This document shows positions 42,922 to 53,052 of a DNA stretch of 64,000 nucleotides, in pieces; positions within the stretch are counted from its first letter, which is position 1; each line of letters begins with the position of its first letter. The DNA is from Haloarcula sp. DT43. GTDB taxonomy: Archaea; Halobacteriota; Halobacteria; Halobacteriales; Haloarculaceae. The translations under genes and the position numbers were made by a program. Where the stretch lies: the NCBI RefSeq assembly GCF_037078405.1, contig NZ_JAYMGZ010000004.1:248001-312000 (forward strand). Reading direction: 5' to 3'. The notes beneath the pieces were generated by a model. The model saw only the letters and a program-made list of their open reading frames with translations, was not told the origin of the DNA and searched no databases.

Positions 42922-43704
42922 ATGAAACGCCGCCACCTCCTGCTGGTCGCCGTCCTCGCACTGGTCGCCCTCTCGGGCTGTACCGGCTTCTTCGGCTCCG
43001 AAGAGGTCGACCCCGACCGGCTGAACGAGAACGCGAGCTACGACTGGAACACCTCCGCCGACGGGACCATCGTCATCGAGGAGTCGAGGTACACCGCCGT
43101 CTACGCCGTCGAGAACGAGACGACGTTCGACGTCTACACCGTCGACGGCCTCGGCCGCGAACGGAGCGTCCCCATCAGCGCGCTCCGGTTCCGGTACGAG
43201 AACGGGACGGTCGTCAGCGCCGCCGAATCGTCGCTGAGTGCCTCGGAGAGCCGCCAGCGAACCACCGTCTCCTTCCCCGGCAACGTCTCCGGGAAGGTCG
43301 GGTACTCGGTCGCCCGGACCGGGAAGCGCTTCGCCTCGCCGACGCTCGTCGAGGACGGGTCGTACACGGTCGTGCTCCCGCCCAACACCGGGGCGGGCAT
43401 CCCGTTCCTCTCGCGCATCAGCCCCGGCGGCTACGAGTCCGAGACCGTCGACGGCCAGCAGGCCATCCGCTGGGACGAGGTGACCTCCGACCAGATTATC
43501 GTCCGGTACTACCTCGACCGCGACCTGTGGCTGTTCGGCGGTCTGTCGGCCATCGCCGCCACTATCGGCGTCGTGGGGACGCTGTATTACTACCGACAGC
43601 TCCAGGCGACCATCCGCCGGCGCAAGGAAGCCGGCATCGACCTCGAAGAAGAGGAGGAGGACGACGACCCGCGGGACCGCGGTCCGCCGCCGGGAATGCG
43701 GTGA
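42922..43704 (+). CDS. DUF5803 family lipoprotein with C-terminal membrane helix
   Basis: 260 residues. Lipoprotein signal (RRHLLLVAVLALVALSGC), a beta-rich extracellular domain (about 30-195) and a membrane helix near residues 200-222 (WLFGGLSAIAATIGVVGTLY). A cytoplasmic Glu/Asp-rich tail ends GPPPGMR. It follows the DUF2110 gene by 10 bases, a neighbourhood I believe to be common in haloarchaea. Function unknown. Confidence 0.8.
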   Translation: MKRRHLLLVAVLALVALSGCTGFFGSEEVDPDRLNENASYDWNTSADGTIVIEESRYTAVYAVENETTFDVYTVDGLGRERSVPISALRFRYENGTVVSAAESSLSASESRQRTTVSFPGNVSGKVGYSVARTGKRFASPTLVEDGSYTVVLPPNTGAGIPFLSRISPGGYESETVDGQQAIRWDEVTSDQIIVRYYLDRDLWLFGGLSAIAATIGVVGTLYYYRQLQATIRRRKEAGIDLEEEEEDDDPRDRGPPPGMR

Positions 43705-43750
43705 CGACGGCACGAGTCGGCAGTGACGGCCGAGAGACGCTAACCGCGTC

Positions 43751-43758
43751 ACTTTTTC
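43751..43758 (+). promoter_or_regulatory. TATA box of nop5-flpA
   Basis: ACTTTTTC is centred about 27 bases before the nop5 ATG at 43782. It separates the RNP operon from the tfe group and implies a leaderless transcript. Confidence 0.45.
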
Positions 43759-43781
43759 GGGTCGGACGTGCACACACGGCT

Positions 43782-44621
43782 ATGAGCAACGGCTGGTTCG
43801 CCGGGCTGGACCCGGACGACGACGCGGCCGCAGTCGAACGTATTCAGGCCGGTCGAGCCGACGCGCCTGACGACTGGCCCCGACGGGCCGTCGACGCGGG
43901 GTTCGCCGCCGACGAATCGACGTACTACGAGCGCCTCCACGAGATGACGATGACCGCCACCAGGGCCGCGGTGCAGGACCGGGAGCGCGCAGACGACCAG
44001 CAGCTCGTCCACGCGGTCCGGGCGATGGCCGACTGCGAGCGGACGGCGAACGAACTCGCCGAGCGGGTCGCCGAGTGGGGCGGGAGCCGATACGGAGACA
44101 GCGGAAGCGGCGTCGAGTACGCCCGCTCGCTGGCCGAGAGCGACGCCGAAGACGAGGGCGACCGCGCGCTGCGGTCCCTGGCCGAGCGGACGGCGACACT
44201 GGCCGACGAGGCCGACGCGCTACGGGCGTACATCGAGCGGACCGCCCCCGCCGTCGCGCCGAACCTCTCGATGCTGGCCGGGCCGGTGCTCGCGGCGCGG
44301 CTGGTCTCGCTGGCGGGCGGGCTCGAACAGCTGGCGAAGAAGCCCAGCGGAACCGTCCAGGTGCTCGGCGCGGAGGACGCGCTCTTTGCCCACCTCAAGG
44401 GGTCCGCGCCGTCGCCCAAGCACGGCGTCATCTTCACTCACGAGTACGTCCGCGGCACGCGCCGCGAGGACCGCGGCTCGGCCGCACGGGCGCTCGCCGG
44501 CAAGCTGTCCATCGCCGCCCGTGTCGACCACTACAGCGGCGACCGCCGGCCGGAACTGCAGGCGGAACTCGACGAGCGCATCGAGCGGATTCAGGCACGC
44601 GCCGAGGAGGGTGAGGCATGA
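43782..44621 (+). CDS. nop5: NOP5/NOP56 core protein of C/D box sRNPs
   Basis: 279-residue scaffold of the archaeal C/D box guide RNP that directs 2'-O-methylation of rRNA and tRNA. The coiled-coil middle is long. The Nop domain carries IERTAPAVAPNLSMLAGPVLAARLVSLAGGLEQLAKKPSGTVQVLGAEDALFAHL and then GVIFTHEYV, the RNA/L7Ae binding surface. Shorter than non-halophilic archaeal Nop5, as usual for haloarchaea. Coupled by ATGA to fibrillarin. Confidence 0.95.
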   Translation: MSNGWFAGLDPDDDAAAVERIQAGRADAPDDWPRRAVDAGFAADESTYYERLHEMTMTATRAAVQDRERADDQQLVHAVRAMADCERTANELAERVAEWGGSRYGDSGSGVEYARSLAESDAEDEGDRALRSLAERTATLADEADALRAYIERTAPAVAPNLSMLAGPVLAARLVSLAGGLEQLAKKPSGTVQVLGAEDALFAHLKGSAPSPKHGVIFTHEYVRGTRREDRGSAARALAGKLSIAARVDHYSGDRRPELQAELDERIERIQARAEEGEA

Positions 44622-45250
44622 CGCTCCCGACGGGCGTCCAGCGCCACGGCTTCGGCGGCGAGACGAGCCTCGCGACGCGGGGCCAGCCGGTGTACGGCGA
44701 GCGGACCGACGGCGACTGGCGGCGGTGGGACCCCCACCGCTCCAAGCTCGGCGCGATGCTCGAAGCCGGGATGGACACCGGCCTCGACGGCGGCGAGACG
44801 GTGCTGTACCTCGGCGCAGCGGCCGGGACGACCGTGAGCCACGTCGCCGACTTCTGTGGCCCGACCTACGCCGTCGAGTTCGCGCCGCGGCCGGTGCGCG
44901 AACTGCTCGACGCCGCCGAGAGCCGTGGGAACCTCTTTCCGCTGCTCAAAGACGCCCGAAAGCCCGAGCGGTACGCCCACGTCGTCGAACCGGTCGACGT
45001 GGTGGTCCAGGACGTGGCGACCAGGGGACAGGCCCGCGTGGCAGGGCTCAACAAGCAGTTCCTCACCGACGACGGGCGGTTGCTTGCGGCCATCAAGGCC
45101 CGGAGCGAGGACGTGACCGCCGACCCCGACGACGTGTTCGACAGCGTGCGCGAGGAACTCCGGGCAGAGTACGAACTGCTGGAAACGGCGCGGCTGGACC
45201 CGTACCACGAGGACCACCTCGGCGTCGTCGCCCGCCCCCGAGAGGACTAA
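44618..45250 (+). CDS. flpA: Fibrillarin-like rRNA/tRNA 2'-O-methyltransferase
   Basis: 210-residue SAM-dependent methyltransferase of the C/D box RNP. SAM site [17 protein letters not shown] near residue 65, then [15 protein letters not shown]. The catalytic-fold strand is [14 protein letters not shown] and the end is [13 protein letters not shown]. Translationally coupled to nop5, its obligate partner. Confidence 0.95.
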
Positions 45251-45327
45251 CCGGGTCGGGCCGGTGATTCCGGCCCCCGAGAACCACCCTCGCCCAGTCG
45301 TGCGGGCCCAGCGGGCGGGGACGGAAG

Positions 45328-45335
45328 GCTTTAGC
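45328..45335 (+). promoter_or_regulatory. TATA box of gshA
   Basis: GCTTTAGC is centred about 28 bases before the ATG at 45360, supporting that start over longer in-frame alternatives. Confidence 0.4.
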
Positions 45336-45359
45336 GGGTCGATTCCGATGTGCCCATCA

Positions 45360-46436
45360 ATGGACGCGACGGGTTCTGCCGAGCATTTCACCCGGATGGG
45401 GACGCTCGGCATCGAAGAGGAGTTTTACGTCGTCGGCGAGTTCGGTCGCCCCACGTCTGGCACGGACGAACTCGTGTACGAGACGGAGCCGCCGGAAATC
45501 CTCGACGGCCGGCTCGACCACGAACTGTTCAAGTGCGTCATCGAGACGCAGACGCCGCGTATCGACGACCCGGCGGACGCCCGGGAACAGCTGGTCGCCG
45601 TGCGGGACGCGCTGGTCGAACACGCCGAGACCAACGGGTTCGGCATCGCCGCCGCGGGCCTGCACCCGCTGGCGAAGTGGCGCGAACTCGAACACGCCGA
45701 GAAGCCCCGATACAGGTCACAGCTGGACCGGATTCAGTACCCACAGCACCGCAACACGACGGCCGGCCTGCACGTCCACGTCGGCGTCGACGACGCCGAC
45801 AAGGCCGTCTGGGTGGCGAACGAACTCCGCTGGCACCTCCCGCTGATGCTCGCGCTGTCGGCGAACTCGCCGTACTGGAACGGCTTCGACACCGGCCTCC
45901 AATCGGCCCGCGGGAAGATATTCGAGGCCCTGCCCAACACCGGAATGCCGACGGCGTTCGACGACTACGACGCCTTCGAGGCCTACGAGCGGCGGATGCT
46001 CGAAACGGGCAGCATCGACGACCGGGGCGAACTCTGGTTCGACGTGCGGCCCCACTCCGGCCACGGCACCGTCGAGGTGCGGGCCCCGGACGGGCAGGCC
46101 GACCCGGACCGGGTGCTGGCATTCGTCGAGTACGTCCACGCGCTCGTCGTTGACCTCGCCGAGCGCTACGAGGACGGGGAGTCCGGCCGCCGGCTCCGTC
46201 GGGAGTTCCTCGACGAGAACAAGTGGCGCGCGATTCGCCACGGCCAGTCCGCGGACCTGCTGTCTCGGGACCTCTCGACCACGCGCTCGGTCGAGGAACT
46301 GGTCGAACTGGAGAGCGACCGTCTGGACGTCGACGGCCTGTGGGAGATTTACGACCGCGAGAGCGGGGCCGAGCGCCAGCGCCGACTCCGAAACGAGGAG
46401 GGCGTCGCGGCGCTCGCGGACTCGCTGCGGTTGTAG
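45360..46436 (+). CDS. gshA: Glutamate-cysteine ligase (gamma-glutamylcysteine synthetase)
   Basis: 358-residue enzyme of the YbdK/GCS2-like family making gamma-glutamylcysteine, the main low-molecular-weight thiol of haloarchaea. Features: [11 protein letters not shown] at the N-terminus (metal/ATP site), [32 protein letters not shown], and [21 protein letters not shown] 45360 from promoter distance. Stands alone between flpA and the HTH gene. Complements SOD in oxidative-stress defence. Confidence 0.92.
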
Positions 46437-46506
46437 CGGTTCGGTCGCGGGGACCGGGCCAAGGGTTTTTATTCAGCTGTAGCTTTTGTCCTCACAGAGA
46501 CAACGC

Positions 46507-47019
46507 ATGTCTGCAGACGACACCGACAACGACGAACCCGAGGACACAGGCGATGTCCGTGGCCGAATCGAGCAGGAGGCGGACCGCGCGGTCGAGCAGT
46601 TCGACGAGGGTATCGTCGACCTGCTGGCGTGGGTGCTCGACACGGAGACGCGAGCGCGCATCTACGTCCACCTGCGACAGCACCCCGACAGCACCAGCGA
46701 GGAGATAGCCGAGGGGACCGGCCTGTATCCGAGTACTGTCCGCGAGGCCCTGGCCGCGCTCACCGAGGAGGAAGTGGTCACCCGGCAGAAACGCGAGAGC
46801 GACGGCGCGGGCAACAACCCCTACGAGTACAGCGCCATCCCGCCGAGCGACCTCGTCAACACCATCGTCGGCGACATCCAGTCGGAGCTGAACACGGTGT
46901 TCAACCTCGACGACCACATCGGCGGCGGGACGACGCTCGAACCAGACGACGAGCCCGTGACGATTTCCGTCGAAGACGCCGACGACGCCGAGGACGGCGA
47001 CGACGAGGCAGACGCGTAA
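46507..47019 (+). CDS. Winged-helix transcription regulator
   Basis: 170 residues. An acidic N-terminus and a charged helix (GRIEQEADRAVEQFDEGIVDLLAW) are followed by a winged helix: TRARIYVHLRQHPDSTSEEI, then GLYPSTVREALAALTEEEVVTRQKR as recognition helix and wing. The C-terminal half (IPPSDLVNTIVGDIQSELNTVF) may dimerise, and the tail is acidic. Conserved haloarchaeal type; targets unknown. Start ATG 46507 follows two TATA-like stretches (46465-46472, 46482-46489). Confidence 0.82.
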   Translation: MSADDTDNDEPEDTGDVRGRIEQEADRAVEQFDEGIVDLLAWVLDTETRARIYVHLRQHPDSTSEEIAEGTGLYPSTVREALAALTEEEVVTRQKRESDGAGNNPYEYSAIPPSDLVNTIVGDIQSELNTVFNLDDHIGGGTTLEPDDEPVTISVEDADDAEDGDDEADA

Positions 47020-47085
47020 CCGAACCCCGCACGGGCCGTTCCGTGAGTCGATATTACTAAACCCGCTCGTGCCGTTGCCCGGGAT

Positions 47086-47574
47086 ATGAATGTCGCGCTG
47101 GGGGGAACGTTCGACCCGATTCACGACGGACACCGCGCGCTGTTCGAACGCGCGTTCGAACTCGGGGACGTGACTGTCGGCCTCACCAGCGACGCTCTCG
47201 CGCCGAAGACGCGACACGACCAGCGCCACGTGCGGTCGTTCGCCGAACGGAAGTCCCGCCTCGCCGACGAACTCGCGACGCTCGCCGCCGACCTGAACCG
47301 CGAGTGGGAGGTCCGGGAACTCACCGAGCCGACCGGCATCGCTACGGAACCGCAGTTCGACGCCCTTGTCGTCTCGCCGGAGACGGAGACCGGCGGCCGC
47401 CGCATCAACGAAATCCGCGAGGAGCGCGGGCACGACCCGCTCGAAATCGAGGTCGTCCCGCACGTCCACGCCGAGGACGGCGACATCATCTCTTCGACCC
47501 GAATCGTCAAAGGCGAAATCGACGAACACGGGAACCTCACCCCGGAGCGCACCGGCCGCGAGAACATCCCGTAG
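47086..47574 (+). CDS. coaD: Phosphopantetheine adenylyltransferase (archaeal)
   Basis: 162-residue nucleotidyltransferase making dephospho-CoA. Class motifs: GGTFDPIHDGHRALFERAF at the N-terminus (HxGH-like DGH), LAPKTRHDQRHVRSFAERK, VVSPETETGGRRINEIREERG, and EDGDIISSTRIVKGEID (the ISSTR motif). Length is normal. With panB at 51.4 kb, two coenzyme A pathway genes lie in the window but not together. Confidence 0.94.
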   Translation: MNVALGGTFDPIHDGHRALFERAFELGDVTVGLTSDALAPKTRHDQRHVRSFAERKSRLADELATLAADLNREWEVRELTEPTGIATEPQFDALVVSPETETGGRRINEIREERGHDPLEIEVVPHVHAEDGDIISSTRIVKGEIDEHGNLTPERTGRENIP

Positions 47575-47883
47575 CTACCAGCCCGGCGCTTCCAGCCCCG
47601 CCGTCTCGAGCAGGTCCTTCCAGCGCTGCTGAACCGTCAACCGTGAGACGCCCGTCGCCGCCGCGACGGCGGACTGGGACCGCTCCTCGCCGGCGACCAG
47701 CGCACCGACGTACACGCTGGCCGCCAGCGTCGCCTGCTTCGACCGGTCCTCCTCCGGGACGGTCGAGAGGAACAGGTCGACCGCGTGGGACCGCGCCTCG
47801 GTGCCGAGGTCAAGCCGGTCCGACGCCGCCTCGATATCCGAGAGCCACTCGTCGTGCTCGATTCGGTCGCTGGCGCGGTACAT
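47575..47883 (-). CDS. TFB-like single cyclin-fold protein
   Basis: 102 residues forming only one cyclin repeat, as in the second repeat of transcription factor B. AVDLFLSTVPEEDRSKQATLAASVYVGALVAGEERSQ gives helices 2-4, and AAATGVSRLTVQQRWKDLLETAGLE gives the last helix-turn-helix, which in TFB reads the BRE. The zinc ribbon, B-finger and first repeat are absent. The frame begins with MYRASDRIEHDEW and its stop abuts coaD's. It may be a short regulator that competes at promoters, or a remnant; codon use and acidity argue it is intact. Confidence 0.75.
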   Translation of the reverse strand: MYRASDRIEHDEWLSDIEAASDRLDLGTEARSHAVDLFLSTVPEEDRSKQATLAASVYVGALVAGEERSQSAVAAATGVSRLTVQQRWKDLLETAGLEAPGW

Positions 47884-47969
47884 ACGGCTCCGTTGGACCC
47901 CACCGCACCTAAACCTTCGTCGCCTGCAAGCGAAGGGTTCTTGACGCCAACGCGGATACCGACGGGTGC

Positions 47970-48054
47970 GCGCGGGTTGCCGAGCCAGGCCAAAGGCGTA
48001 GCGCTTAGGACGCTATCCCGTAGGGGTCCGCCGGTTCGAATCCGGTCCCGCGCA
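47970..48054 (+). tRNA. tRNA-Leu (anticodon TAG)
   Basis: 85-nt class II tRNA. Acceptor GCGCGGG/CCCGCGC with discriminator A, D-arm, anticodon stem TAGCG/CGCTA around loop CTTAGGA (anticodon TAG, reading CUA). A long variable arm (CCCGTAGGGG) and a T-arm with TTCGAAT are present. No intron, no encoded CCA. Its last 24 bases are repeated 123 bases downstream. Confidence 0.95.
48031..48054 (+). repeat. Attachment-site-like direct repeat, copy 1 (3' end of tRNA-Leu)
   Basis: The last 24 bases of tRNA-Leu(TAG), from the T-arm through the discriminator A, are present again without mismatch at 48154-48177. Duplication of a tRNA 3' end is the classical footprint of tyrosine-recombinase integration. 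Confidence 0.7.
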
Positions 48055-48348
48055 TATTCTGTCCGAACAATAGTGAGGACGAATAGCGGCCGGAACGAAT
48101 TCGAACCCTGCAAGGAACGCGCAGCGAACTGCCGTGAGCGAGCATTTCTTGCTCCGGTTCGAATCCGGTCCCGCGCACTCCTCGACGAAGGGCTCCCAAG
48201 AGCCGTGAATGCGGCCCGAGCGAACGAAGCGAGCGCTCCCGCCCGGCCGAGCCGTCGGTTCGCAGCCGCCGGGCAGATTCTCACGGGCCAGGAATCACGA
48301 CCGCTCCTTATGGGGCGTGTCCCCGACGTACTACGTGAGGGACCGACG
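48055..48348. other. Non-coding scar region downstream of tRNA-Leu
   Basis: No convincing gene. 48055-48153 is a 99-base remnant enclosed by the two tRNA-end repeats and contains TTCGAACCCTG, a degenerate T-arm-like string, at about 48104-48114. 48178-48348 contains GAGCGAACGAAGCGAGCG-type short repeats common between haloarchaeal genes and the promoter of the small acidic gene. No integrase or other mobile-element gene is present. Confidence 0.6.
48154..48177 (+). repeat. Attachment-site-like direct repeat, copy 2
   Basis: Exact 24-base copy of the 3' end of tRNA-Leu(TAG), not preceded by the rest of a tRNA. The neighbouring bases are GAGCGAGCATTTCTTGCT on the left and CTCCTCGACG on the right. 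Together with copy 1 it marks a past site-specific integration or a partial tRNA duplication. Confidence 0.7.
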
Positions 48349-48537
48349 ATGTCAGTGTACGACCCACTCCGTGACGTGTCTGCTCGCCCCGCAGGACCGG
48401 CCCGTTTCGACTACGCGGTCGACGACGCGGAGAACCCGACGGAGCTCACCGTCTTCAGCGACCGGGACGAGGAGCTCCCGACCCACTGGATTTCGGTCGA
48501 CATCGACCACGCTATCGCGCTCGACGAGCTGCGGTGA
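48349..48537 (+). CDS. Small acidic conserved protein
   Basis: 62 residues. Hydrophobic/acidic pattern ELTVFSDRDEELPTHWISVDIDHAIALDEL resembles a haloarchaeal small-protein group that ends in a T-x-WI and L-x-x-(M/L)R pattern (DUF7511-like from memory, unverified). ATG at 48349. It follows the attachment-site scar and precedes tRNA-Leu(GAG). Function unknown. Confidence 0.58.
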   Translation: MSVYDPLRDVSARPAGPARFDYAVDDAENPTELTVFSDRDEELPTHWISVDIDHAIALDELR

Positions 48538-48626
48538 GCGAGGCGTCGGCTCGCTCGGTGCTATCGGTTATCGCCGGCGGACAGACTACGGTCTGGAAGC
48601 GTCGCGTCCGAAGTAAGTTTGCGTGG

Positions 48627-48648
48627 GTGCAGTCCCAAGGGAATGCAC
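48627..48648 (-). terminator. Hairpin after tRNA-Leu(GAG)
   Basis: GTGCA-G-TCC-CAAG-GGA-A-TGCAC forms a stem-loop 14 bases past the 3' end of the minus-strand tRNA gene. It may be a terminator or a processing signal; no T-run follows, so this is tentative. Confidence 0.35.
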
Positions 48649-48662
48649 CTGCACTCAGAGAG

Positions 48663-48747
<85 letters not shown>

Positions 48748-48878
48748 GCGCTCTCGCTTAGTGCATTCAATCGTTCCCGGTGGGTCAATAAAAGCGCTTT
48801 CGTTTGGGCGCGCCCCGAGAGGGTGTGTCACTCTCTCGAACCGGACGTTTGAAATACGACGAAACCGCTACGGGGGGC

Positions 48879-49382
48879 ATGGCCAAATACTCGACCGGCA
48901 GTGGCGGCGACAGCGCCGGCGGGAGCTGTGAGCTCTGCGGTAGCGACGGCGGCGACCTCCAGACCGCTAACGTCGCTGGTGCGACCCTGCAGGTGTGTGA
49001 GAGCTGTGCGCGGGACCACGGGGAACACGACCGAGCGACGGGGAGTGACAGTTCACGCGACGGGGAGAACCGGAAGCGCAAAGCCGCACAGAACGCGGCG
49101 AAGATGCAGGACGCACAGAAGGCCGACACCTCTCACTGGGAGGACGGTGCCGACTACGACGACGACCAGCTCCCGTACCTGGTCAGCAAGTACGGCGAGC
49201 GCGTGACGGAGGCGCGCCAGGCGGCGGGCCTCCAGACGGAGGAACTCGCCGAGGAACTCGACCAGGCAGAGGCGGACATCCTCGCCGTCGAGCAGGGCCG
49301 GGCGACGCAGGCGAACGTCGGCGGCTCGACCATCAAGGCCCTGGAGGAGTACCTCGACGTCGACCTCGTCGAGTCCAACTGA
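48879..49382 (+). CDS. Archaeal multiprotein bridging factor aMBF1
   Basis: 167 residues. N-terminal zinc ribbon ([20 protein letters not shown] and CESC), a charged linker, and a C-terminal Cro/CI-type HTH (about 105-160: [23 protein letters not shown], then [13 protein letters not shown]). In eukaryotes MBF1 bridges activators to TBP; the archaeal protein associates with ribosomes and transcription. Start at 48879 is the conserved MAKYSTG. Gene in a run of core information genes. Confidence 0.92.
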
Positions 49383-49419
49383 CCCAGAACATTTTGCCGG
49401 CTCCGACCTAACGGCCGGT

Positions 49420-50547
49420 ATGGACCTCTCCGCCGAGCAGCGCGCCATCCGCGACACCGTCCGTGAGTTCGCCGTCGAGGACGTCCGTCCAAGCGCCGCC
49501 GACGCAGACCGCGAGCAGTCCTTCCCCGAAGACTGCTGGGACGGCCTCGCGGACATCGGCGTCACCGGGCTGACGACACCCACCGAGTACGGCGGTTTCG
49601 ACGCGGACGAGACGACCTACGCGCTCGTCAACGAGGAACTGGCCCACGGCTCGCTGGCGGTAGCGACGGCGCTGTCGGTCCACTGCCTGGCGACCGCCTG
49701 TATCGCGCAGTTCGGCTCCGAGGCGGTCCGGGACGACTGGCTCCCGGAGATGGTCGACGGCCGCCCGGTCGGCGCGTTCGCGCTCTCGGAGCCACAGGCT
49801 GGGTCGAACCCGCGGGAGCTGTCGACCACCGCCCGCCGCGACGGCGACGGGTACGTCATCGACGGCGAGAAGCAGTGGATAACCAACGGCCAGCGCTCCG
49901 GCGTCGTCATCGTCTTCGCGAAGACCGACCCCGAGGACCCCGACTCGATAACGCAGTTTCTCGTCCCGAAAGACGCCGCGGGGCTCACCGCCGGCGAGAA
50001 GGAGGACAAGCTCGGCCTCCGCGCGAGCGACACGACGCCGCTCCAGTTCGACGGCGTCCGGGTCCCCGAGCGCTACCGGCTGACGGCCGAGGGAGAGGGG
50101 CTGGCCGCGGCGCTGTCGGTCCTGACCACCGGCCGGGTCGCCATCGCCGCACAGGCTGTCGGTCTCGCCCAGTCGGCGCTCGACGAGGCCCTCGACTACG
50201 CCGAAGAGCGCGAGCAGTTCGACCGCCCCATCGGCGAGTTCCAGGCGATTCGGCACAAGCTCGCGGACATGGCGACGGACGTGCAGGCGGCGCGGCTGCT
50301 GACGCGGGACGCCGCCGAGCGGCTAGAGCGGGGGGAACAGGCGAGGGCGGCGGCGAGCATGGCGAAGTACTTCGCCAGCGAGGCGGCGGTCGAGGCGGCA
50401 AACGAGGCGGTTCAGATTCACGGCGGCTACGGGTACACGACCGACTACCCCGTCGAGCGACTCTACCGCGACGCGAAGGTGACGACCATCTACGAGGGGA
50501 CCAGCGAGATACAGCGGAACATCGTCGCGCGGGACCTGCTGGAGTGA
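49420..50547 (+). CDS. Acyl-CoA dehydrogenase
   Basis: 375-residue flavoenzyme of fatty or branched-chain acyl-CoA oxidation. Signature strands: [60 protein letters not shown], and [35 protein letters not shown]. The latter carries the catalytic-Glu region (IYEGTSE). Chain specificity unknown. With the enoyl-CoA hydratase, acyl-CoA ligases and Acd it points to an active acyl-CoA oxidation route. Confidence 0.94.
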
Positions 50548-50589
50548 CGGGGCGAAGCGGTTTTGCGGGCGTCGGCCCTACTACGCCGT

Positions 50590-51132
50590 GTGACTCACGA
50601 CGCCGTCATCTACGACCTCGACGGGACGCTCGTCAGGCTGGCCGTCGACTGGGAGCGGGTGACCAGCGACGTTGCGACGGTCCTGCGGGACCGCGACGTC
50701 GACCCGGAGCGCCGCGACCTCTGGGAGATGTTGCGGCTGTCCTCGGAGGTCGGTCACCGCGAGGCCGTCGAAGCAGCGATTACCGACCACGAGCGGACCG
50801 GGGCACACGAGTCGGAGCGGCTCCCGCTGGCCGACGGCCTCCCCCACACCGTTCCCGTCGGCATCTGTTCGCTCAACGCCGAGGCGGCGTGTCGGGTGGC
50901 GCTGACGGTCCACGACCTCGACGACTACGTCGGGCCGGTCGTGGGCCGCGATACCGTCGGGTCGTCGAAGCCGGACCCGGAGGGGCTGCTGGCGATTGCC
51001 GCGGAACTCGGCGTCGACCCGGCCGCGGCGGTGTTCGTCGGCGACTCCGAGAGCGACGCGACGGCCGCCCGGCGGGCCGGGATGGCGTTCGAGTGGGCGA
51101 ACGAGTTCGATCAGTCCCGGTACCGGGCGTAG
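50590..51132 (+). CDS. HAD-superfamily phosphatase
   Basis: 180 residues, GTG start at 50590. HAD motif I DLDGTLV (AVIYDLDGTLV) with both Asp residues, motif II near GICSLNAEAAC, motif III Lys in VGSSKPDPEGLL, and motif IV FVGDSESDATAARRAGM. A small helical cap follows motif I. Phosphoglycolate phosphatase- or nucleotidase-like; substrate not identifiable. Its last 22 bases overlap the end of the convergent small membrane gene. Confidence 0.87.
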   Translation: MTHDAVIYDLDGTLVRLAVDWERVTSDVATVLRDRDVDPERRDLWEMLRLSSEVGHREAVEAAITDHERTGAHESERLPLADGLPHTVPVGICSLNAEAACRVALTVHDLDDYVGPVVGRDTVGSSKPDPEGLLAIAAELGVDPAAAVFVGDSESDATAARRAGMAFEWANEFDQSRYRA

Positions 51133-51338
51133 GCGTAGACGCAGACGGCCGTCAGGAACCAGACGAGCGCGCCGACGCGGACCGCGAACGTCGCCCGCGC
51201 GGTCCAGGTCGGGAGCGTGACCGCGGTCGACGCGAGGACGACGAGCGGCGACCCGACGAGAATCGTCGTCACGAACGTGACCTGCATCACCCACCCGAAG
51301 TCCACGCCGTCCGGGTCCGTCTTCTCGACTGTTGGCAC
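51111..51338 (-). CDS. DUF5822-like small membrane protein
   Basis: 75 residues starting at GTG (51338). Conserved N-terminus EKTDPDGVDFGWVMQVTFV, then two membrane helices (about 15-37 and 50-70, AVRVGALVWFLTAVCVYAYA). Matches a small haloarchaeal membrane family (DUF5822 from memory). Overlaps the convergent HAD gene by 22 bases and is divergent from panB. Function unknown. Confidence 0.78.
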   Translation of the reverse strand: MPTVEKTDPDGVDFGWVMQVTFVTTILVGSPLVVLASTAVTLPTWTARATFAVRVGALVWFLTAVCVYAYARYRD

Positions 51339-51426
51339 GGCCGATGTTACTTCTAGCTGGGGCAAGCACCTTGCGGTTTCCCGCACAATCCGAACAGGTA
51401 AGTCGCCGGCGCGCCCCCGCACGGAT

Positions 51427-52236
51427 ATGCCAACGGTCCGGGACCTGCAGGCGATGGCTGGCGAGGAGCCGATAACGATGCTGACGGCGTACGACGCTGT
51501 CACCGCGAGCATCGTCGACGACACCGGTGTCGACGTCATTCTCGTGGGCGACAGCATGGGCAACGCCGTCCTCGGCCACGACGACACGCTCCCGGTCACG
51601 CTCGACGAGATGGCCTCCCGGGTCGGCGCGGTGGCACGCGGCGCAGACGACGCCCTCGTCGTCGCCGACATGCCGTTCCTCTCTTTCGGCGCGGACGAGG
51701 GCGAGAGCGTCCGGAACTGCGGGCGGATGCTGAAAGAGGAGGGGGCGAACGCGGTCAAGCTCGAATCCGGCCCGCACACGGTCGACCTGACGGAGCGGCT
51801 GACGGACCTGGGCATCCCGACGATGGCCCACCTCGGGCTCACGCCCCAGAGCGTGAACCAGACCGGCTACACCAGACAGGCGACCGACCGCGCCGAGGCC
51901 GAGGAAATCCTCGACCTCGCCCGCGAGCACGAGGCCGCCGGCGCGTTCGCGCTGGTACTCGAACACGTCCCGGCGAACCTCGCCGGCCAGGTCACCGAGG
52001 CCGTCGACATCCCGACAATCGGCATCGGGGCCGGCGGCGACTGCGACGGCCAGGTGCTCGTGTTCACCGACGTGGTCGGCCTCTCGGCGTCCAGCCCGCC
52101 CTTCGCCGAGCAGTTCGGCGACGTCCGCGGCGAGGTCGCCGACGCCGTCGACGAGTACATCGACGCCGTCGAGTCCGGCGCGTTCCCGGCGGAGTCCCAC
52201 AGCCACACCGAGGACGAACTCGACGACCTGTACTGA
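51427..52236 (+). CDS. panB: 3-methyl-2-oxobutanoate hydroxymethyltransferase
   Basis: 269-residue enzyme making ketopantoate for pantothenate and CoA. Features: ITMLTAYDAVTASIVDDTGVDVILVGDSMGNAVLGHDDTLPVTLDEM (metal and substrate site), AVKLESG, AHLGLTPQSVNQTGYTRQ, VLEHVPANLAGQVTEAVDIPTIGIGAG. In archaea PanB serves the pantoate kinase route. Start ATG 51427. Stand-alone gene. Confidence 0.95.
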   Translation: MPTVRDLQAMAGEEPITMLTAYDAVTASIVDDTGVDVILVGDSMGNAVLGHDDTLPVTLDEMASRVGAVARGADDALVVADMPFLSFGADEGESVRNCGRMLKEEGANAVKLESGPHTVDLTERLTDLGIPTMAHLGLTPQSVNQTGYTRQATDRAEAEEILDLAREHEAAGAFALVLEHVPANLAGQVTEAVDIPTIGIGAGGDCDGQVLVFTDVVGLSASSPPFAEQFGDVRGEVADAVDEYIDAVESGAFPAESHSHTEDELDDLY

Positions 52237-52248
52237 GCGCGGGGAGAC

Positions 52249-52971
52249 TCAGCCCGCCGTGGCCGTCTGGTTCGCCAGCCAGGCGTCGTAGGCCGATTGG
52301 TTCTTGACGACGACGGTGGCGTCCATCTTGCTGTGGCCGGCCCCGCACATCTCGGCGCAGTACAGCCGGTACTCGCCGGGCTCGGTCGCGCGGGTTCGGG
52401 CCGTCATCGTCCGGCCGGGGAAGATGTCCTGTTTGACGCCCAGTCGGGGGATGTAAATGGCGTGTATCACGTCCGTCGTCCGCAGCCTGAAGGTGACGTT
52501 CTCGTCGGCCGGGACGACGAGGCGCTCCTCCGTCGTGACGTTGGCCTCGCCGTAGGAGAACTCCCAGCCCCACTGGTAGGCGAGCACGTCTATCTCCGTA
52601 TCGTCCGCGAAGGCGTCGGTCCCGTCGGCCGAGGCCTGAGCCGCCGCGGGCGTGATGTAGGGGTTCGCCATCACCACGAACGCCGAGATGCCGACGAAGA
52701 CGAGTATCGCGCCGGTCGCGGCCGTCCAGGTCACCTCCAGGGCGGGGTCGTCGACCGTCGGCCGCGGGTCGTCGTTGTCCCGGAACCGGTAGATGGCGTA
52801 CACGAGCGTGAGTTCGACGAACAGCGTCAGCGGGAGGGCGACGTAGAGGAGCTGGGCGTTGAGTTCGTCGATGGCCGCCCTGTTGACCGACTGCGCCGCG
52901 ACCGGCGCGGCCAGCATCACGAGCCCGCCGACGAGGAGAGCCGCGCGAACGAGGCGTCGTCGGAGACGCAT
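52249..52971 (-). CDS. coxB: Cytochrome c oxidase subunit II
   Basis: 240 residues. Signal peptide (ALLVGGLVMLAAPVAAQ), two membrane helices (about 40-60 and 88-108), then a cupredoxin domain. It has an intact binuclear CuA site: His in TTDVIHAIYIP and CxxxCxxxHxxM in YCAEMCGAGHSKM. Typical WEFSYGE aromatic motif for electron entry. ATG 52971 is preferred to a GTG two codons upstream. Divergent from coxA with a shared 167-base promoter region; TATA-like AAACTATTT near 53000 on the minus strand. Confidence 0.94.
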   Translation of the reverse strand: MRLRRRLVRAALLVGGLVMLAAPVAAQSVNRAAIDELNAQLLYVALPLTLFVELTLVYAIYRFRDNDDPRPTVDDPALEVTWTAATGAILVFVGISAFVVMANPYITPAAAQASADGTDAFADDTEIDVLAYQWGWEFSYGEANVTTEERLVVPADENVTFRLRTTDVIHAIYIPRLGVKQDIFPGRTMTARTRATEPGEYRLYCAEMCGAGHSKMDATVVVKNQSAYDAWLANQTATAG

Positions 52972-53052
52972 TGTCACAGCGTACCAATCCCCATGTCAAA
53001 TAGTTTGCCCAAAGCCGGGCGGTCGGCCGGCGACCGCACCCGGCCCAGCGTA

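Follow-up and report, generated by a model that had tools for sequence, protein, structure and literature searches.

We tentatively propose that positions 48055-48177 of the Haloarcula sp. DT43 DNA analysed here (64,000 nt in all, referred to as the window) are one unit of a group of haloarchaeal repeats, "tRNA-tail cassettes", tandem hairpins that would recombine on the 3′ ends of tRNA genes. Units of this architecture each carry a copy of the 3′ end of their own tRNA, with sharply bounded block edges. They are present at some tRNA genes and absent from the same site in related genomes, and their cores are common to several tRNA species. The features of the DT43 unit and its neighbourhood are given in Table 1.

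Table 1. Features of the repeat behind tRNA-Leu(TAG) in Haloarcula sp. DT43, in positions of the window.
Feature	Positions	Strand	Basis
tRNA-Leu(TAG), array anchor	47970..48054	+	ARAGORN; Rfam RF00005
Repeated block, tRNA nt 52-73 (T-loop to discriminator base)	48033..48054	+	Repeat search; edges by identity profile
Hairpin A: stem with internal GAAC...GTGA (tandem G-A) loop	48055..48085	+	Folds; loop statistics
Imperfect antisense of tRNA nt 73-52 (acceptor strand and T arm)	48086..48107	+	Inverted repeat I3; position-57 covariation; cognate duplex rank
Core hairpin between antisense and copy, exchangeable	48108..48153	+	Core clusters common to several tRNA species; folds
Direct copy of tRNA 3′ end (22-nt block 48156-48177)	48154..48177	+	Repeat and genome pattern searches
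tRNA-Leu(GAG), convergent; no full unit in DT43; units at 3/7 parsed Haloarcula loci	48662..48747	-	ARAGORN; relatives' loci

An earlier note on this DNA had reported that the end of tRNA-Leu(TAG) recurs downstream, and this was confirmed: CCGGTTCGAATCCGGTCCCGCGCA stands at 48031-48054 and again at 48154-48177, with 0 mismatches, a spacing of 123 and 99 bases between the copies. With up to two mismatches allowed, the 24-mer was found at 3 places in the whole 3.75 Mb genome, the third being the 3′ end of the convergent tRNA-Leu(GAG) with 1 mismatch; the reversed control pattern gave 0 matches in the same 3.75 Mb, and duplication by chance is excluded. The sequence between the copies had been called unrelated, which was wrong. 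This is because 48086-48107 is a rough reverse complement of the tRNA-Leu(TAG) end (inverted repeat I3) and the interior folds strongly, with z values of -2.7 for the RNA fold of 48055-48200 and -3.9 for the DNA fold of 48055-48177, the latter giving two hairpins. In an Rfam 15 scan of 47500-49000, no RNA family other than the two tRNAs scored above the gathering cut-off. Nor is the second copy what is left of a tandem tRNA gene in decay, an alternative raised in the same note, as identity to the tRNA begins only at nt 52 and ARAGORN found no second tRNA there.

Near the unit, we noted two further features. On the minus strand behind tRNA-Leu(GAG), at 48618-48661, a GC-rich hairpin, GTGCAGGTGCATTCCCTTGGGACTGCAC, is followed by CCCACGCA, an 8-nt copy of the acceptor end of that tRNA. 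The hairpin and CCCACGCA recur in Haloarcula relatives, and in Natrinema zhouii another, unlike hairpin also ends in CCCACGCA; the DT43 hairpin with its CCCACGCA is possibly a minimal unit. Between the convergent tRNA-Leu genes there is a 62-codon ORF (48349-48537, plus strand, MSVYDPLRD...ALDELR) that is apparently kept in several Haloarcula relatives.

Comparison of units behind many tRNAs revealed a common order: hairpin A, an antisense of the last 22 tRNA nucleotides (nt 73-52), a core hairpin, and a direct 22-nt copy of nt 52-73, in a total of ~100-125 nt with no gene inside. For these unit sets, units >190 nt and ARAGORN calls without a recognisable T-loop were excluded, and duplicate downstream sequences were counted once. 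In 60 non-Leu units the identity between tRNA and copy was 0.88-1.00 at nt 53-73, and outside the block it was 0.12-0.47 at nt 44-51 and 0.28-0.42 from nt 76; the block edges of 129 Leu units were like those of the non-Leu set. The duplication is fixed in length (nt 52/53-73) and sharp at both edges, and these edges favour the cassette reading.

Hairpin A was detected automatically in 115 of 184 non-redundant units. Most of its loops were GAGC...GCGA (29) or GAAC...GTGA (28), which covary and contain tandem G-A mismatches, and a strong strand bias was seen for GAAC/GTGAG loops (327 v 55; 151 v 10). The antisense and the copy formed a hairpin with a variable tip. At position 57, the base of the copy covaried with the antisense base opposite it (G-C 58, G-T 7, A-C 9, A-T 48) in the 122 of 221 units with an anchorable antisense, a count drawn from related species whose p-value is not to be taken at face value. 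RNA folding of 60 units gave a mean z of -3.43 for the sense strand and -2.54 for the antisense strand, compared to -0.22 for control stretches.

The relationship of the antisense to its own tRNA was less pronounced than that of the copy. By ungapped identity the cognate signal was weak, and the own tRNA mostly did not rank first. By duplex energy over nt 52-68 there was a cognate bias, with mean ranks of 0.27 (17 units; KS p 0.015) and 0.19 (8 units; KS p 0.0006), and none over nt 61-73 alone (p 0.34 and 0.55). Where tRNA and copy differ, the antisense paired with the copy only at 95 positions, with the tRNA only at 95 and with neither at 104. Within positions 53-68 it sided with the tRNA at 27 and with the copy at 16, which weakens the cassette reading. 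We also considered that the units are H/ACA guides, because no H/ACA RNA is reported to have been identified in Haloferax volcanii (PMC2584109). This idea was dropped since the contiguous antisense appears unlike a two-part guide pocket.

To what extent a genome carries such units varied between the two species in which all tRNA records were compared. With a strong copy defined as one having at least 18 of 22 bases matching the tRNA end, DT43 had a strong downstream copy at 8 of 41 parsed tRNA records (Leu-TAG, Gly-TCC, Val-TAC, Lys-CTT, Ser-GGA, Asp-GTC, Leu-TAA and Arg-GCG) and N. zhouii at 18 of 45. For every strong copy, the best-fitting tRNA of the genome was its own (18/18 in N. zhouii, 8/8 in DT43), and it is in part because all 26 are cognate that we favour cassettes. 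Cognate acceptor copies of 8 nt also followed unit-less tRNAs more often than expected, at 10 of 33 (expected 3.3) and 5 of 28 (expected 1.9), and these are probably decayed or minimal units.

A generic unit pattern, GATTYGAAN{25,55}GTTCRAATC, was searched in 245 genomes of the phylum. It matched in 55 of 56 Halobacteriales, with no control match, as opposed to 8 of 189 genomes elsewhere in Halobacteriota, where the control matched in 3 and the hits were at chance level. Genome G142 was the sole one of the 56 without a match. In 20 fetched regions from three genomes, all 26 sense-strand matches lay 19-281 nt behind a tRNA on the same strand, a placement that favours the cassette reading. A Leu-specific double-copy pattern had at least 119 matching stretches, from named genomes across many haloarchaeal genera. 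The DT43 region itself was matched, at least in a tRNA, in 41 of the 41 genomes searched (its own included), and many same-genus matches stopped exactly at the second copy; the unit itself is therefore shared among relatives. Among Haloarcula tRNA-Leu(TAG) genes, 20 of the 24 parsed had 1-3 downstream copies; of the remaining four, three run straight from the tRNA into foreign DNA and one is truncated where its contig stops. Loci found through the double-copy pattern were preselected for their first copy, so Leu-TAG counts that include them are biased. At the three tRNA-Leu(GAG) loci with units, the copies have that tRNA's own base at nt 69.

Presence and absence at one site were compared at Haloarcula tRNA-Arg(GCG), for which 30 loci were fetched and 25 had a parsed tRNA. 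A unit was present at 16 of the 25 genes, and five loci (L272, L273, L275, L288 and L297) were clean empty sites with the same flank. The four others were decayed, chimeric or without a recognised copy. Filled sites read tRNA, unit, 22-nt copy, flank, and in most of them the flank was that of the empty sites. Such same-site presence and absence favours recombining cassettes. Against this, deletion between direct repeats would explain the empty sites equally well, and haloarchaea are reported to delete between direct repeats (PMC3119063).

Tandem arrays of 2-6 copies were found in 82 cases. In 47 of them the first copy was the better match to the tRNA, in 14 the last copy was, and in 21 the two were equal. 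This polarity is biased for the Leu loci, whose search pattern favours a good first copy; in the 16 non-Leu arrays alone, the first copy was better in 12 and worse in 2. This distal decay is a further point in favour of cassettes.

Of the 23 core clusters with at least two members, 12 spanned at least two tRNA isoacceptors, each member with its local copy. Near-identical cores were common, for example, to Leu-TAG, Leu-GAG, Val-TAC and Pro-TGG, and to Gly-TCC and Ala-GGC, and were also present in different genera. No intact whole unit had moved between tRNA species in the sample, a point against cassettes, the best whole-body 7-mer overlap between isoacceptors outside the Leu pair being 0.49, and hairpin A was apparently bound to its locus (Gly-TCC in L036, L240 and L242; Val-TAC in L047 and L314). 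As cores are common to several tRNAs and whole bodies are not, the exchangeable piece is the core between antisense and copy, and exchange is demonstrated for the core only. Core exchange with retention of local copies favours the cassette reading. At L242 and L318, tandem units behind one tRNA had like hairpins A and unlike cores, and cores have therefore been replaced independently.

We hypothesize that whole units are gained or lost between the 22-nt direct repeats. The core, flanked by near-universal T-loop sequence (antisense to its left, sense to its right), would be swapped between tRNA genes and between species, and the 22-nt copy would go on matching the local tRNA. The T-arm/acceptor block would be the site of recombination, most likely at the DNA level and possibly via the folded sense strand. 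We infer this action on DNA rather than RNA, and likewise whether any one event was a gain or a loss. Candidate enzymes would be a tRNA-targeting tyrosine recombinase, another integrase with a 22-bp duplication, or general recombination. No recombinase linked to the units was found, which we count against cassettes.

A narrower version of this mechanism, which we consider unlikely, is that of integron-like arrays anchored at haloarchaeal tRNA genes. Hairpin cassettes would then recombine as folded single DNA strands, the stem of antisense and T arm would rebuild a double-stranded T-loop site, insertion would be beside the tRNA, and decay would be at the far end.

The main rival to cassettes is a functional RNA trailer, which we regard as possible but on balance doubtful. 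The unit would be co-transcribed with the tRNA, and its folded tail would control 3′ maturation or the fate of the tRNA, acting like the RtT repeats behind E. coli tyrT. In one variant of this proposal, the acceptor/T-arm copy would resemble a tRNase Z substrate; in another, the antisense would be a competitor for the tRNA's own 3′ end. A trailer of this kind is consistent with the near-universal occurrence of units in Halobacteriales and with the presence of a unit at every Haloarcula tRNA-Leu(TAG) gene that was neither followed by foreign DNA nor cut by a contig end (20/20), which suggests retention and speaks against cassettes. The strong structure, the better folding of the sense strand and the strand-biased loops are likewise what an RNA function predicts, and they weaken the cassette reading; the covarying loop pairs also count for a trailer. 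The first 8 nt were T-rich behind tRNAs and behind last copies alike. Further along, at 15-75, T-rich tracts were rarer in units (0.01-0.02 per 15-nt window) than behind unit-less tRNAs (0.06-0.11), which fits a transcribed tail.

In silico, the first 65 nt of a tRNA's own unit cut the mean acceptor-stem probability to 0.17, as opposed to 0.61 with shuffled and 0.49 with non-cognate units, which counts for a trailer. That argument is weak, however, because unit-less tRNAs with their native trailers also lose acceptor pairing (0.78 to 0.47). In the fold model the copy restored tRNA folding in only 6 of 70 cases, which is unfavourable to a trailer, and the idea that the copy is an "antidote" rescuing the tRNA was dropped on that count. 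The clean absence of units from many orthologous tRNAs also argues against a trailer. In addition, stems of the units showed no excess of G-T over A-C mismatches (47 v 60; 20 v 10 in tRNAs), and thus no excess of G-U, which favours cassettes and argues against constraint on RNA alone.

We also weighed a neutral origin, which appears improbable. Template switching at the T-arm palindrome would have given rise to the direct and inverted copies, gene conversion in polyploid cells would keep the copies like the tRNA, and nothing would be mobile or selected. The T arm and antisense are indeed palindromic, and chimeras such as L293 occur. Correction of quasi-palindromes can create covariation. Repeat-mediated deletion as reported for haloarchaea (PMC3119063) is in favour of this explanation as well. 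On the other hand, cores that are nearly identical behind unrelated tRNAs and between genera need transfer, and neither the restriction to Halobacteriales (55/56 v 8/189) nor the recurrent loop motifs would be expected of a general mutational process.

The distribution of larger insertions bears on both cassettes and the reading given in the earlier note, that of a scar of an integrated element. Foreign DNA stood directly 3′ of tRNA-Leu(TAG) at 3 of 24 Haloarcula loci (L014/L299, L023/L305 and L026/L304), in agreement with that note's view of the site as an integration hotspot in relatives. One such island, of 5.76 kb in genome G016 (L299 423-6100), was examined by family search and encodes a PF00589 tyrosine recombinase together with a DDE transposase, an HNH nuclease, an HsdR_N protein and a restriction enzyme of AspBHI/Mrr type; its restriction-type genes (AspBHI/Mrr, HsdR_N, HNH) make up a small defence-like cargo. 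At its right-hand copy only the last 24 nt match the tRNA, which is the block of the units. The expectation that islands are bounded by the same 24-mer held for this one of the four compared. The others had longer matches: 54 nt in common with the tRNA in G024 (whose left end was similar to that of G016 by eye), 44 nt in the Arg-GCG island of G019, and an imperfect longer match in the 1.35-kb Leu-TAG island of G019 (L306, G019:C3:327500-330500). This last island lies not in the tRNA but in the second unit copy, and by this one case unit copies seem able to act as integrase landing sites. Use of the 24-nt block by the G016 integrase island and the position of the 1.35-kb island both favour the cassette reading. 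For the island in G002 (L304), a second copy or far end was not found within the stretch fetched.

The duplication does have the form of an attachment site, as attL and attR would, and no integrase was seen among the ORF translations inspected at 43000-53000, as had been stated; it was the interpretation as the scar, or very small remnant, of one element that did not stand. Cognate copies in this architecture occur at many tRNAs of a single genome, the unit pattern is matched in all but one of the 56 Halobacteriales, and tandem arrays reach six copies. A halovirus or plasmid origin of the interior also found no backing, as a 147-base stretch had no blastn match in a phage or a plasmid collection. 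The 22-nt Leu end had 0 matches in IMG/VR; the generic pattern had at least 120 there, regarded as chance in so large a collection and left unused. The repeat is thus probably not the scar of one lost virus, and loss of a single tyrosine-recombinase element is very improbable despite the foreign DNA at three loci and the island with the same 24-nt block, because units are distributed across the order and their interior is structured, modular and common to several tRNAs.

In the open-licence papers searched we found no description of such tRNA-tail arrays, and the Rfam library likewise had none. As many as 40% of a genome's tRNA genes (18/45) are followed by this structured, cognate-specific element, which is present in nearly every haloarchaeon sampled. 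If the units recombine, they would be a new class of tRNA-anchored repeat, able to mislead attachment-site and island callers and, as in L306, to give integrases substitute landing sites. If they are transcribed, they would be a tRNA trailer of a new type, with a possible role in controlling tRNA maturation.

Closest in layout are the RtT repeats (E. coli tyrT, RF00391), tandem units behind a tRNA that each have a copy of the tRNA 3′ end. The haloarchaeal units differ in having cognate copies at many tRNA species, an antisense and two hairpins, and the RF00391 covariance model found none in 21 haloarchaeal genomes (0/21) with a positive E. coli control. The likeness to tRNA-targeting integrative elements with tyrosine recombinases is in the direct repeat of the tRNA 3′ end and in islands at the same sites, and the T stem-loop is given as one of three known tRNA target regions of archaeal tyrosine recombinases (PMC8371274, a review of the archaeal families). 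The units are distinct from these elements in being ~100-125 nt, gene-free and tandem, with an antisense of the tRNA end. Casposons also make a uniform target duplication at a tRNA 3′ end, in the case described one of 14 bp made up of the last 4 bp of tRNA-Leu and 10 bp beyond, and CRISPR spacer integration resembles the units in its head-to-tail arrays anchored at one end (both PMC6977970). In comparison to the casposon duplication, that of the units is 21-22 nt and wholly inside the tRNA, and no inverted ends were noticed; the DT43 genome had only one Cas1 match, on another contig. In integrons, each of the tandem cassettes ends in an imperfect attC hairpin whose outer arms are conserved and whose tip varies. 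The haloarchaeal units are anchored by a tRNA gene and are without a cassette ORF; they resemble integrons in being tandem and anchored at one end, and their antisense/copy hairpin may be comparable to attC.
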